Shown in pieces: positions 4,166 to 41,490 of a stretch of 45,233 nucleotides of DNA (positions are counted from its first letter, which is position 1; each line of letters starts with the position of its first letter). Both the position numbers and the translations under genes were made by a program. The notes below the pieces were generated by a model. It worked only from the letters and a program-made list of their open reading frames with translations. It was not told where the DNA came from and did not search any database. The DNA lies in the IMG/VR virus record IMGVR_UViG_3300038678_000096, positions 1 through 45,233 of that record. One strand, 5' to 3'. Source of the DNA: a virus.

Positions 4166-4941
4166 TGAAGAAACTTAGAGTCCTGGACTTGTTCTCAGGA
4201 ATAGGTGGCTTTAGTTTAGGATTAGAAAGTACCAGTGGGTTTGAAACTGCTGCTTTCTGTGAATTCGATAAGCACGCCAGGTTAGTTTTAAATAAACATT
4301 GGCCTAAAATTAAAATACATGAAGATGTGAGGTGTTTAGATGGAAACGAATACAGAGGATCAATTGACGTTGTTTGCGGAGGATTCCCATGCCAAGATTT
4401 GTCAGTCGCAGGTAAAAAGAAAGGTATTACCGAAGGTGAAAGATCGAACTTATACACCGAAATGTTGCGAATTATTAGCGAGTGTTTGCCACGATACGCA
4501 ATCTTTGAAAACGTCACAGGTTTGCTTACTGGAGAATCAGGACGATGGTTTGCTAAGTTTCTCTATGACTTGGCCTCGGTCGGGTATGATGCGGAATGGC
4601 ACTGCATACCAGCTTCCGAACTTGGCGCGAACCATCACAGAGATCGGGCTTGGGTTGTTGCCTACCCCAACTTGCAGCGATGCGAAGGGAGCACCAAAGA
4701 ACAGGTATTGGGGGAGCCAAGATTACAGATCGAATTTGTGCGAAGCTTTGAGAGATGGCCCACTAGACAAGATATACCCGCACCCCGTTCTATTGGAGCG
4801 GCTGATGGGCTTTCCCGAAGGTTGGACAGAATTACCAGATTAGGAAATGCAGTTGTTCCAGGTATACCGAAAATAATAGGCGAGGCAATATTAAAATACG
4901 AATCCGATCAGTTAACACATAACACTAAACAAATAGGATAG
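4162..4941 (+). CDS. DNA (cytosine-5)-methyltransferase (259 aa)
   Basis: This is a C5 cytosine methyltransferase that uses S-adenosylmethionine to methylate cytosine in phage DNA, most likely as protection from host restriction. Family motifs appear in order: I DLFSGIGGF (9-17, AdoMet binding), IV GGFPCQDLS with catalytic Cys77, VI ENV (116-118), VIII HHRDRAW (158-164) and X RLGNAVVP (226-233). At 259 residues it is shorter than typical enzymes because the target-recognition region (about 170-215) is short. The target sequence cannot be read. An unusual feature is that a 167-codon ORF with its own SD (4340-4843) is nested within it in another frame. Confidence 0.95.
   Translation: MMKKLRVLDLFSGIGGFSLGLESTSGFETAAFCEFDKHARLVLNKHWPKIKIHEDVRCLDGNEYRGSIDVVCGGFPCQDLSVAGKKKGITEGERSNLYTEMLRIISECLPRYAIFENVTGLLTGESGRWFAKFLYDLASVGYDAEWHCIPASELGANHHRDRAWVVAYPNLQRCEGSTKEQVLGEPRLQIEFVRSFERWPTRQDIPAPRSIGAADGLSRRLDRITRLGNAVVPGIPKIIGEAILKYESDQLTHNTKQIG
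4340..4843 (+). CDS. Overprinted ORF nested inside the methyltransferase gene (167 aa)
   Basis: This open frame lies wholly inside 4162-4941 in another frame. It has an ATG preceded by GAGGTG with a 5-nt spacer. The product does not look like a random shadow: it starts TEDQLTLFAEDS, then has TWPRSGMMRNGTAYQLP, GLLPTPTCSDAKGA and an LMGFPEGWTELP end. From memory, these strings recur in phage proteins found next to or overlapping Dcm genes, some standing alone. Both frames would then be under selection. The function is unknown; it may be a methyltransferase partner or target-recognition element. Confidence 0.6.
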   Translation: METNTEDQLTLFAEDSHAKICQSQVKRKVLPKVKDRTYTPKCCELLASVCHDTQSLKTSQVCLLENQDDGLLSFSMTWPRSGMMRNGTAYQLPNLARTITEIGLGLLPTPTCSDAKGAPKNRYWGSQDYRSNLCEALRDGPLDKIYPHPVLLERLMGFPEGWTELPD

Positions 4942-16669: not shown

Positions 16670-16792
16670 ATGAAGATACTGATTGAGTTTAAAGATTTAC
16701 ACGATAAAGTTAAAAAATATGCTAATGATAATTGCGAAGGTAATTTTTCTTTGGCTGTTAGAGAGTTAATTAGAAAAGGACTATCTAAATGA
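16670..16792 (+). CDS. RHH-like regulator of the NAD cassette (40 aa)
   Basis: This 40-residue ORF has SD AAGGAT and a four-base ATGA overlap with the PRPP-synthetase-like gene. A strand (KILIEF) and two helices (KDLHDKVKKYANDN; LAVRELIRKGL) match a ribbon-helix-helix layout. It is a paralogue of 6607-6762, sharing YANDN-x-x-GNF-x-x-AVR-x-L-x-x-KGL. It probably binds the palindrome over its own -10 box and so controls the two enzyme genes. Confidence 0.7.
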   Translation: MKILIEFKDLHDKVKKYANDNCEGNFSLAVRELIRKGLSK

Positions 16793-17613
16793 GTATTTAT
16801 ATATTAAGTGGCTTTGATAGGTTTGATGTTGATTTTATAAAGTTCTCTGATGGTGCTGAAATATGCGAGTTAAAGATATTTCCAAACAATAAAGCAAATA
16901 TCGTTTTAGATGTTGATAACTGTAATGTTGATTTGGTTAGGCTTATGCTTGTTAAGGATGCACTAGATAATTTAGGTGTTGAACACATAACGTTAACTAT
17001 GTCTTACATTCCAAACGCAAGAGCAGACAGACGATTTAGTAAGAATCAATCGCAATCTTTAAAGGTTTTTTGCAATGTCATTAACTCGTTAAATTTCAAA
17101 GAAGTTCATGTTAGCGATCCGCACTCTGATGTTTCAACTGCGTTATTGAATAACGTTAAGGTTAACGATCAAGTTAACTGTTTCATGCAGAAAAAACCAC
17201 AAATAGATAAAATATCTAATGACTATGTTTTTTGCTCTCCTGACTTGGGGGCCACAAAGAAAACATTCGATCTATCAATGAAAACAGGTATCGATTTAAT
17301 TCAAGCAGTTAAAATCAGAGATATTAAAACCGGAAATATCATTAAATGTGATGCTCAATGTGAAAACCTAAAAGGTAAGGACGTTGTTATTGTTGATGAT
17401 ATCGCTGATGGCGGAGCGTCTTTTATTTATCTTGCAGAAAAGTTAAAAGCTAAAGGCGCGGGTAAAATTATATTATTTGTTACACACGGTATTTTTTCAA
17501 AAGGCTTGGCGCCGTTAGTAGGTAAAGTTGATTATATATTCACGTATAACCTAATGGAAAAATTTATAAACAATCGAGATATAGAATTATTTAACAATAA
17601 ACAAGGGGAATAG
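16789..17613 (+). CDS. Ribose-phosphate pyrophosphokinase-like enzyme (274 aa), candidate ADPR-PP synthetase
   Basis: This is a PRPP-synthetase homologue with PNARADRR (75-82, matching the family's ARQDRK region), SDPHSD (109-114, catalytic metal region), SPDLGATKK (150-158) and the PRPP loop VDDIADGGAS (202-211). It is shorter (274) than bacterial Prs (about 315). Prs transfers pyrophosphate from ATP to ribose-5-phosphate. In phage NARP1-type systems a homologue acts on ADP-ribose to give ADPR-pyrophosphate. The pairing with a NAMPT homologue two bases downstream, with no NMN adenylyltransferase in the genome, makes the second role attractive but unproven. Confidence 0.9.
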   Translation: MSIYILSGFDRFDVDFIKFSDGAEICELKIFPNNKANIVLDVDNCNVDLVRLMLVKDALDNLGVEHITLTMSYIPNARADRRFSKNQSQSLKVFCNVINSLNFKEVHVSDPHSDVSTALLNNVKVNDQVNCFMQKKPQIDKISNDYVFCSPDLGATKKTFDLSMKTGIDLIQAVKIRDIKTGNIIKCDAQCENLKGKDVVIVDDIADGGASFIYLAEKLKAKGAGKIILFVTHGIFSKGLAPLVGKVDYIFTYNLMEKFINNRDIELFNNKQGE

Positions 17614-17614
17614 A

Positions 17615-19090
17615 ATGGAGTTTTTAGCACCGCTAATGAAAGATGCATACAAGGTATTTCACAAATCAGCATACAAGCCAGGAGTTACACATGTTTATAG
17701 TAACTTCACAAATAGATTTAATACTCACAGCAACATGCCAAACAATGCAGAGGTTTTATTTGTTGGCTTACAGTATTTTATTTTAGATGTATTAATAGAA
17801 AGATGGAATGATACATTTTTCAATGTTGATAAAGATATTGCTGTAAATGAATATTCAAGAGTTGTTAATGCAATGTTGGGTAAGGTTATTGCTGTTGATC
17901 ACATTGAAGCGCTGCACGACCTTCAGTATTTACCATTAGAAATTAAAGCAGTACCAGAGGGTACATTAGTTCCTTATGGCGTGCCTAGCCTAAGTATTGT
18001 CAATACTGTATCTGGTTTCGGCTGGTTAACAAATATGATTGAAACTGTTATGAGTGCGGAAATTTGGCCTGTATGCACAAGCGCAACAACGGCATTAGCT
18101 TATCGTAAGCGATTCGAACAAGAGTCATCACTTGATAAGGATATGATCCCTTTTATGGGTCATGATTTTAGCTATCGTGGAATGTTTGGTACTCAAGCTG
18201 CTGCAATGTCTGGATTCGGTCATTTATGCTCGTTTGCTGGTTCTGATGTTATTCCCGCGGCATTATTTGCTGAAAAGTATTACGGAGCAAAGATTGATAA
18301 AGAACTTGTGTTTGCTTCTGTTGATGCTACTGAACACAGCGTTCAATGCTCATATGGTAATGATGGTGAGTTAGATTCGTTATTACATTTGATAACCAAC
18401 GTTACACCAACAGGAATTATTTCTATAGTTTCTGATACGTGGGACTTCTGGAAACTTGTAGGCGAATATTTGCCAGCAATAAAAGACACCATCATGAATC
18501 GTGAAGGTACGGTTGTCATTCGTCCAGATAGCGGTGATCCTGTTGATATTTTATGTGGCATATCATCAAATGATTCAGCTAAATACTTACAAGCAACTGA
18601 ATTAGAGCGTAAAGGTTTGATTGAATGCTTATGGGATATCTTCGGCGGCACAGAAAAAAATGGACTTAAGTTATTAGATAGTCATATTGGCGCTATTTAT
18701 GGTGATAGCATTACACTAGAACGTCAAGATTTGATTATTAACAAATTAGTAGCTAAAGGATTTGTTCCTAACGTTGTGCTCGGTATTGGCTCTTATACTT
18801 ACCAGTATGTAACTCGTGATACCCATGGTTCAGCTATGAAAGCTACAGATATTCAATTTGGCGCAGGTAATCACCAGCCAATATTTAAAGATCCGAAAAC
18901 TGATAGTAGTAAAAAATCAGCTAAAGGATTATTAAGAGTTTGCAGGAATGCCGATGAATCTTTGTACTTAATGGATTCTGTCCATCCTGATGATGAAGGC
19001 GGTGAATTAAAAACTGTATTTAAAGACGGTAAATTAACACGTAAAACTAGCCTTAATAAAATACGTAAATTAATTAACGATTCGATATAA
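17615..19090 (+). CDS. nadV: Nicotinamide phosphoribosyltransferase family enzyme (491 aa), candidate nicotinamide ADPR transferase
   Basis: This is a full-length NAMPT/NadV homologue: HDFSYRG (183-189, nicotinamide site), TEHS (239-242) with His241 matching the catalytic histidine of NAMPT, RPDSGDP (303-309), GDSI and GIGSYTYQYVTRD. NAMPT joins nicotinamide and PRPP to make NMN. In NARP1 the homologue joins nicotinamide to ADPR-PP, giving NAD+ directly. It ends 28 nt before a strong terminator. The symbol is for the family; which of the two reactions it performs cannot be decided by reading. It acts in the cytoplasm. Confidence 0.93.
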   Translation: MEFLAPLMKDAYKVFHKSAYKPGVTHVYSNFTNRFNTHSNMPNNAEVLFVGLQYFILDVLIERWNDTFFNVDKDIAVNEYSRVVNAMLGKVIAVDHIEALHDLQYLPLEIKAVPEGTLVPYGVPSLSIVNTVSGFGWLTNMIETVMSAEIWPVCTSATTALAYRKRFEQESSLDKDMIPFMGHDFSYRGMFGTQAAAMSGFGHLCSFAGSDVIPAALFAEKYYGAKIDKELVFASVDATEHSVQCSYGNDGELDSLLHLITNVTPTGIISIVSDTWDFWKLVGEYLPAIKDTIMNREGTVVIRPDSGDPVDILCGISSNDSAKYLQATELERKGLIECLWDIFGGTEKNGLKLLDSHIGAIYGDSITLERQDLIINKLVAKGFVPNVVLGIGSYTYQYVTRDTHGSAMKATDIQFGAGNHQPIFKDPKTDSSKKSAKGLLRVCRNADESLYLMDSVHPDDEGGELKTVFKDGKLTRKTSLNKIRKLINDSI

Positions 19091-40465: not shown

Positions 40466-40708
40466 TTAAATAAGTTTTACTTTTTTATATACTGAATAGC
40501 CTCTACTCACCATATACTCCGCGATAGCTTCATCGTGAAGATGATCTAATATTGTATGAGCATCACATTTAACAGCTAACTGAGTCATTAACTCATCTAT
40601 ATTTACATCATCAAGATACATGACCATTTCTGGATTGCCTTGGCCGTTAGTTACTAGGTTTACCTTGTCTGCGCCATCACAAATAATTTTTAAGTTTTCA
40701 GTTATCAT
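40466..40708 (-). CDS. Small hypothetical protein (80 aa) behind an RNA element
   Basis: This 80-residue alpha/beta protein (MVMYLDDVNIDELMTQLAVK, AIAEYMVSRGYSVYKKVK) is of unknown family. SD GGAG is 7 nt before its ATG and lies directly after the 21-bp stem of the RNA element at 40725-40862. Its translation could thus be controlled by the folding of the leader. Confidence 0.65.
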   Translation of the reverse strand: MITENLKIICDGADKVNLVTNGQGNPEMVMYLDDVNIDELMTQLAVKCDAHTILDHLHDEAIAEYMVSRGYSVYKKVKLI

Positions 40709-40724
40709 TGTTATCTCCTTTTAA

Positions 40725-40862
40725 TCTGTATAGATGAATGAGTTAGGGTAAATATATTCTGCAAAGCCCCACTTACCTAGAGATTGGCGAGTAAACACTT
40801 AAGGTATTAAATACCAAACGTACTATTTTGCATTATTATTACTAACTCATTCTCTATACAGA
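40725..40862 (-). ncRNA. Structured leader element with 21-bp closing stem
   Basis: Bases 40725-40746 and 40842-40862 pair over 21 bp with a single bulged base (40735). Inside there is a TGCAAA/TTTGCA helix (40760-40765/40827-40832) and the hairpin GGTAT-TAA-ATACC (40803-40815). On the minus strand the whole element ends 2-4 nt before the SD region of 40466-40708. This nested, multi-helix shape is typical of cis-acting RNAs or processed small RNAs. I do not recognise it as a known riboswitch. The strand is taken from the downstream gene. Confidence 0.65.
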
Positions 40863-40874
40863 CTATTAAAATTG

Positions 40875-40936
40875 TGCTAGTTCCTACCGAGAGTTTATTT
40901 TATTCAAAGGCGTTGTCTCTATGAGTGCAACTAGCA
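40875..40936 (-). ncRNA. Second stem-closed element next to the leader
   Basis: TGCTAGTT (40875-40882) and AACTAGCA (40929-40936) close 46 nt, just upstream of the 21-bp-stem element. With the GCCCA/TGGGC hairpin at 40964-40980, it shows that the whole 295-bp gap 40709-41003 is structured and holds no gene. Confidence 0.45.
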
Positions 40937-41003
40937 AAGCCGCTCAACTCCTTGTAATGACTTAGCCCAAATTAATGGGCTTATTGTTGTTATGGGTTAT
41001 GTG

Positions 41004-41408
41004 TTAGCTGGATTTAACCTTTGATAAAGCGTCAGCTAGTTTGCGCATTTCAGACTCGATACGCTCAATTTCAATATCTTTATCTGATTTTTCTGGCTTG
41101 ATTCTGTATTCAATACTAACATCCCAGCGAGGCGACATTACCCTCTGCCAGTATCCAGCATTATCAAGCATTTCAATCTCTGCACCATCAGCCCAATCTT
41201 TAATTAACTCACAATGCTTATGTGGTGGATTAGGGTGCTGGTGTAATTTAAACTGCTCTGCTGTCCATTTACCATCTAGCTCAACTAGGTACAAATCACC
41301 ACTATTAATAGAACTGACAGTATATAGAACACCGACAACTAACCTTGAATCTATATTTTCATTCTTATTTACACAAAGAGCCTTACTACCTACCTTAAGC
41401 TTACCCAT
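41004..41408 (-). CDS. Hypothetical protein (134 aa)
   Basis: The start is taken at 41408 (SD AAGGA); the longer frame would run through the promoter region. The N-terminal part reads as a small beta domain (KVGSKALCVNKNENIDSRLV, VLYTVSSINSGDLYLVEL), and the C-terminal part has IKDWADGAEIEMLDNAGYWQ with a WDVSIEYRIK end that I have seen in many phage early proteins. Function unknown. Confidence 0.65.
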   Translation of the reverse strand: MGKLKVGSKALCVNKNENIDSRLVVGVLYTVSSINSGDLYLVELDGKWTAEQFKLHQHPNPPHKHCELIKDWADGAEIEMLDNAGYWQRVMSPRWDVSIEYRIKPEKSDKDIEIERIESEMRKLADALSKVKSS

Positions 41409-41460
41409 CTTCTCTTTCCTTTTAATTACATTTCGTTGATGTACAAACAATAATACAGTT

Positions 41461-41490
41461 CTTGACATTGTGCAAGTATTAATTTAATAT
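41461..41490 (+). promoter_or_regulatory. Promoter and operator between divergent operons at 41.4 kb
   Basis: The plus -35 is a perfect TTGACA (41462-41467), 17 nt, TAATAT (41485-41490). CTTGACATTGTGCAAG (41461-41476) is an imperfect palindrome that also contains the minus-strand -35 TTGCAC, with TATTGT at 17-nt spacing. A regulator bound here would act on both operons; the RHH-like protein encoded at 41522 is the natural candidate. Confidence 0.6.

Follow-up and report, generated by a model that had tools for sequence, protein, structure and literature searches.

The window (the whole stretch of DNA analysed here, 45,233 nucleotides in length) belongs to a tailed phage and is a 45-kb virus record of IMG/VR; its minus strand carries genes for a Sak-type annealing protein, a Gp157-like protein, the terminase and the portal protein. 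On the plus strand, genes for ribose-phosphate pyrophosphokinase and nicotinamide phosphoribosyltransferase lie adjacent at 16789-19090 and represent an NAD+ salvage pair; gene pairs of this kind are known in phages. The RNA element described here is located on the minus strand, in the intergenic region between 41004-41468 on one side and 40466-40708 on the other. The downstream gene (40466-40708, minus strand) encodes 80 amino acids, for which no family or relative was detected, and a search for relatives of P0001, a neighbouring protein in the window, found none either. Megablast with the RNA region returned no matches.

Folding of the element in the window

The element is a 138-nt unit (40725-40862, minus strand) in which a closing stem, P1, surrounds a pseudoknotted core. 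The folding energy of this unit was -42.2 kcal/mol as compared to a mean of -24.7 kcal/mol for shuffled sequences (z = -5.15; 0 of 200 shuffles as good), and the entire 295 nt gave a z of -4.60. An earlier note on this DNA had described a 21-bp stem with one bulge as being beyond chance, and this stem is borne out; the P1 5' arm (UCUGUAUAGAGAAUGAGUUAG; 40842-40862) pairs with the 3' arm (CUAACUCAUUCAUCUAUACAGA; 40725-40746), which immediately follows the 3' arm of P3, and the duplex with its own partner ranks first of 40. The unit stops 2 nt short of AAAAGGAG, the ribosome-binding site of 40466-40708, i.e., just where the stem had been said to end, and this site is unpaired and not sequestered by the RNA element. 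When folded alone, the inner 99 nt did not show an unusual nested energy (z = +0.64); the double pseudoknot of the core (see below) cannot be drawn by a nested folding program. A covariance model of the family, with the window copy among its 36 model-building sequences, matched positions 40739-40837 with 56 bits (E = 1.2e-9).

Two further structures had been proposed beside the long stem. The second stem-closed element (40875-40936, minus strand) is weakly supported (z = -2.27, with 5 of 200 shuffles as good), nothing similar was found among the related loci compared, and it probably lies outside the RNA family. The small hairpin at 40964-40981 exists but is unremarkable (z = -2.57), and only on the opposite strand does it look like a terminator. 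No terminator was found on the strand of the element in the leader between 41004-41468 and 40466-40708.

Discovery and spread of the family

In a sensitive blastn search, the region matched intergenic DNA in four Aeromonas phages (LAh_6, LAh_8, LAh_9 and 4_4572) with E values of ~1e-5; the match spans just 38-39 nt, corresponding to 40743-40781 in the window. A search from those phages reached Aeromonas phage 62AhydR11PP. The core CTAGGTAAGTGGG.CTTTGC.GAATA.ATTTACC, or variants of it, is common to all, and the surrounding closing stems are otherwise unrelated. The family was gathered by core-pattern scans of viral contigs followed by a full-context filter, and comprises about 50 phage loci including these five Aeromonas phages. 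In addition, Sulfuricystis multivorans has a copy on its plasmid pSTJ2 (L187), and a proteobacterial MAG contains a partial one (L119/L224). Blast searches with two family members against phages, and with one against plasmids, brought in pSTJ2 and the Aeromonas copies but nothing else. When the core pattern was run over sets of 369 and 274 gammaproteobacterial genomes, only the MAG already found came up; the covariance model gave the same outcome on 369 genomes, in a search of low power in which few candidates were scored.

Most of 36 records contain one strong copy per contig. Two copies occur on opposite strands in contig G014, adjacent to each other in contig G013 (where the tandem one is weaker) and 357 nt apart in L253. 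L122 and L143 are the copies most closely related to that in the window and share the RNA at 78-89% DNA identity; the DNA compared for these two did not show any match to the window neighbours P0001, P0002 and Sak.

No Rfam 15 family matched over the element in the window or in 15 relatives, matches on further loci were not convincing by E value, and core sequences searched for in open papers did not lead to any relevant report. The family is thus previously uncatalogued, new meaning here that it is absent from Rfam 15 and from the open papers searched. The earlier description of an undescribed structured RNA accordingly holds, given the outcome of the Rfam search that the note had proposed, the conservation of the core in about 50 loci and the compensatory changes described below.

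Shared fold and covariation

RNAs of the family are ~85-140 nt long and share, from 5' to 3', the P1 5' arm; AAUAA; strand a, NGGCA(N); the P2 hairpin; strand b, AGCNCC; the P3 5' arm, ending in AGU; the P3 loop, with the pattern GG(b')NGUU(a')UGCC-GAAUAG; the P3 3' arm, starting with AYU; and the P1 3' arm. The core is a double pseudoknot, as bases of the 17-nt P3 loop (GGGNGUUUGCCGAAUAG) form pairs with both AGCNCC and NGGCA; a/a' and b/b' are mutually nested and P3 crosses both. Some 23 positions of the core are invariant, and its three stems vary. The two helices that the earlier note had placed inside the closing stem are part of this conserved fold, but the comparison resolves the interior as the P2 hairpin plus the double pseudoknot.

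In the window (all positions on the minus strand), AAUAA is located at 40833-40837, on the side of an internal loop opposite GAAUAN, and its A, A, U and last A are invariant among 36 aligned members; we take the AAUAA/GAAUA loop to resemble the UAA/GAN internal-loop motif. Strand a (UGCAAA; 40827-40832) has its partner at 40760-40765. The P2 hairpin (GGUAU UUA AUACC; 40803-40815) is predicted by folding and varies in sequence and length across the family. The strand b region (AUCUCUAGG; 40776-40784), whose partner is the first bases of the P3 loop, is the weakest part of the window copy, with only 4 contiguous pairs. The P3 arms (GGUAAGU, 40771-40777; AUUUACC, 40747-40753) enclose a loop (GGGGCUUUGCAGAAUAU; 40754-40770) that contains b' and a' as well as GAAUA, one side of the internal loop; the P3 loop is near invariant in the family and was what blastn first found.

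We compared true pairing partners with partners swapped among 40 copies (2000 permutations; the variant or rearranged copies L170, L168/L179 and L178 were excluded from the statistics). True partners were better in 2000 of 2000 permutations for P3, b/b' (AGCNCC/GGNGU), the first a/a' pair and P1. P3 formed 6.65 of 7 pairs as compared to 5.01 when swapped (z = 11.5), the longest b/b' helix was 6.53 as compared to 4.90 (z = 8.4), and the P1 duplex reached -20.4 as compared to -11.2 kcal/mol (z = -13.9). The first a/a' pair was paired in 40 of 40 copies, as G-C, U-A, G-U or A-U (z = 6.6), and the fifth varies among A-U, U-A, G-C and G-U, with combinations such as GGCAA/UUGCC, GGCAU/AUGCC and GGCAG/CUGCC. 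In a 55-row model alignment, 93.2% of P3 cells were paired, 73 cells showed double changes as compared to 21.5 after shuffling, and the covariation score was 0.577 as compared to 0.200 for shuffled and 0.04-0.12 for slid controls; as this alignment was fitted to P3, partner swapping provides the more independent test, but there too the register of P3 had been selected by pairing. The earlier note had made the structure depend on compensatory changes in the stem, and these are present (P1 of the window and of its close relative L122 differ by two fully compensated pairs); the structure therefore stands. Wobble pairs are frequent (G-U at one P3 pair in 41 of 55 rows), which indicates selection on RNA and not on DNA. 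With a conserved core and helices that covary above shuffled and slid controls, these sequences represent a new structured RNA family.

Variants and reuse of the P1 stem

P1 is long in the window, L105, L122, L143, L166 and L182; in L146, L162, L142 and L155 it is weak or missing. A long, near-perfect helix of ~20 bp, which would suit an RNase III site, occurs in the window, L122, L143 and L182, and L146 and L162 have a weak one or none. In L178, the order of the core is rearranged, with GGUGGGAGUUUGCCGAAUA-CACG-AAUAAGGCA...GCUCCC within another stem.

Stems of the window type also occur without the pseudoknot core (L226 10846-11069, minus strand; L126 650-794, plus strand; L225 8951-9070, minus strand). 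Contig G012 (L226) contains identical 24-bp P1 arms twice, i.e., around the core and around a different insert of ~160 nt, and the 3' arm of the second stem is again located just before a ribosome-binding site. Likewise, a related stem encloses other inserts in L126 and L121/L225; the L126 insert has tRNA-like D and T arms with no obvious anticodon arm. RNase III sites of phage T7 are known as processing stems. As at those sites, the window has a long imperfect intergenic stem with its 3' arm before a ribosome-binding site, and such a stem is reused within one phage; unlike them, the window stem surrounds a conserved pseudoknotted core, and a long stem is lacking from many family members. The reused P1 thus looks like a T7 RNase III-type processing stem placed around different RNAs, and suggests how the window core could be released. 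Of the roles that the earlier note had listed, an RNase III site is accordingly possible for the long P1, and a small RNA precursor is compatible with the data.

Genomic context

Contig gene maps were drawn with a simple open-reading-frame heuristic, in which individual small genes are uncertain; on these maps, copies are located in leaders (window, L122), between genes (L146), at operon ends with convergent genes beyond (L163, L161, L127) or directly before a terminator (L142, L247). Most copies share the strand of downstream or neighbouring genes. The element ends shortly before a ribosome-binding site in the window, L122, L146, L154, L162, L166 and L169, and several copies finish 26-65 nt 5' of a start codon; in G014, 26 nt separate one copy from the start codon of a downstream gene that presumably encodes CsrA, its product beginning with MLILTRRAGEALMIGDD. 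The downstream genes are unrelated, with no gene family enriched and only scattered terminases and HNH nucleases.

In 8 of 47 loci, a tRNA or tmRNA gene lay no more than 600 nt away (2.2 expected), and T-arm-like tRNA motifs within 400 nt were enriched about six-fold (13 in 41.6 kb, as compared to 25 in 503 kb elsewhere). A permuted betaproteobacterial-type tmRNA (L259 3532-3887, minus strand, on a phage contig of 86.5 kb; RF04321, 124 bits; RF01850, 119 bits) starts right after the L259 copy. We rejected the possibility that the element is part of tmRNA, as this match begins at the end of the element and the beta_tmRNA model enters the element only by unstructured, poorly matching positions.

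A strong match to a sigma-70 promoter was found upstream of 1 of 50 copies, equal to controls and hence not enriched, and a terminator was located just downstream of only 5 of 50. With no strong promoter signal and few terminators, the copies appear to ride in longer transcripts. The conserved UAA was considered as an upstream stop codon and rejected, as this clearly holds for L162 only.

Comparison with known RNA classes

Theta ribozymes are HDV-like phage ribozymes with cleavage sites within 5 nt of tRNA ends (PMC10879173). The family resembles them as a pseudoknotted small RNA of Caudoviricetes that often adjoins tRNAs (PMC10879173), but its distance to tRNAs is tens to hundreds of nt and its strand order is different. 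A theta or other HDV-like ribozyme was rejected, as no HDV-type model of Rfam matched, the spacing to tRNAs is variable and the majority of copies lack a tRNA. Hammerhead and twister ribozymes, for which permuted forms are known (PMC10085705), likewise combine a conserved core and variable stems with diverse contexts and a permuted form; the family differs in consensus and topology, has no Rfam match, and its self-cleavage is putative.

The put RNA of HK022, which acts in antitermination, is also a structured RNA of phage operon leaders (PMC9378689), whereas several family copies are located at operon ends; put was compared by context alone, not by sequence. A put-type antiterminator would be expected at the start of a long operon and was rejected, given the three copies at operon ends and the two by terminators. 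The prophage sRNAs STnc100 and PasD are, like the family, RNA genes in phage non-coding regions (PMC13192938). A sub-threshold STnc100-like match (L082 2556-2687; 37.7 bits, cut-off 47) lies directly 3' of the element in LAh_8; it leaves the core uncovered, and no fold in common was found.

Interpretation

These comparisons show that the family is conserved as RNA and has moved between phages independently of the neighbouring genes. We favour the reading, with a probability of roughly 0.45, that the element is a self-contained RNA module, most likely processed and trans-acting, a function that we infer. Its gene-independent placement, usually single copy number, tRNA and tmRNA neighbours and near-invariant unpaired core fit a self-acting RNA, and the many unrelated neighbour genes make an RNA with its own job probable, rather than a switch for the adjacent gene; a small RNA precursor is close to this reading. 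The module would be transcribed within whichever operon carries it, would then fold, and would be trimmed out or protected, in the window phage probably by RNase III-like cleavage of the long P1. The released RNA may then act in trans, with the invariant core AAUAA/GGCA...GUGGG.GUUUGCCGAAUAG presented to a protein or ribonucleoprotein, either of the host or of the phage. As P1 is weak or absent in four copies, P1-mediated excision cannot be general. Two further observations speak against a self-contained module. Promoters are not enriched before the copies and terminators are few behind them, which gives no indication of independent expression; and several copies stop 26-65 nt short of a start codon, in the manner of a cis leader.

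The latter copies fit a cis element of the carrier mRNA (translation control, riboswitch, 5' processing or stability), which would act here on 40466-40708 and the operon behind it. We consider such an element possible but doubtful. The copies that end shortly before a ribosome-binding site, the predominance of the downstream genes' strand, and the long P1, which is similar to RNase III sites of the T7 type and occurs a second time ahead of another gene in G012, are consistent with it. On the other hand, the downstream genes are unrelated and differ even between the closest relatives, copies at operon 3' ends face convergent genes or directly precede a terminator, and in the window the ribosome-binding site is free and the leader without a terminator on the strand of the element. 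The riboswitch-like leader of 40466-40708 that the earlier note had suggested is not supported; copies also lie beside tRNAs and tmRNA. With a riboswitch or a leader specific to one gene, the same gene partner should recur together with an expression platform, neither of which was found, and the different neighbours of even the closest relatives argue against a riboswitch for 40466-40708 and for a self-contained module.

The main rival is a new self-cleaving ribozyme class that processes polycistronic or tRNA-containing phage transcripts, which we regard as unlikely. The compact double-pseudoknot core with its invariant positions and variable stems, the permuted core of L178 (as in hammerhead and twister; PMC10085705), the tandem copies, the leader, intergenic and 3' positions, and the tRNA/tmRNA neighbourhood (as for theta ribozymes; PMC10879173) would all suit a ribozyme. 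Conversely, no Rfam ribozyme family matched, the distance to the tRNA end is not fixed, unlike in theta ribozymes, and there is usually a single copy per genome. An element that acts as DNA, such as a recombination site or an inverted repeat, is highly improbable. The identical P1 arms of L226 do flank different inserts, as cassette inverted repeats would, but wobble pairs are kept, the pseudoknot strands covary, P1 is dispensable and copies are mostly on the sense strand of neighbouring genes.

On balance, we lean towards one of two readings. The family may be a mobile class of phage RNA that adopts a new double-pseudoknot fold and acts in trans, either inhibiting or recruiting some conserved factor of the host, such as RNA polymerase, an RNase, the ribosome or a component of a defence system; alternatively, it may represent a new class of self-cleaving ribozymes. 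Conserved RNA classes without known function are uncommon, and several earlier ones proved to be ribozymes, riboswitches or RNA machines. The present family combines an almost invariant core and a clear, testable fold with members in cultured Aeromonas phages, and its gene-independent distribution points to RNA-level activity during infection.

Other features near family copies

In LAh_8, a second small repeated hairpin (CGATGAGCCTTACATCG then CTAAAGAAA; L082 2408-2436 and 2692-2720) adjoins the family copy, and a gene for a ProQ-like RNA chaperone lies ~1 kb upstream. A hairpin similar to this CGATGAGCCTTACATCG/CTAAAGAAA motif occurs 3' of the family copy in L164 (near 4205-4225). L143 and L126 carry a further conserved-looking stem-enclosed element ~300-100 nt 5' of the core on the same strand (GAACTTGATAAAGG...GTGGGTTTTTTCTCATCGAGTTC in L126).
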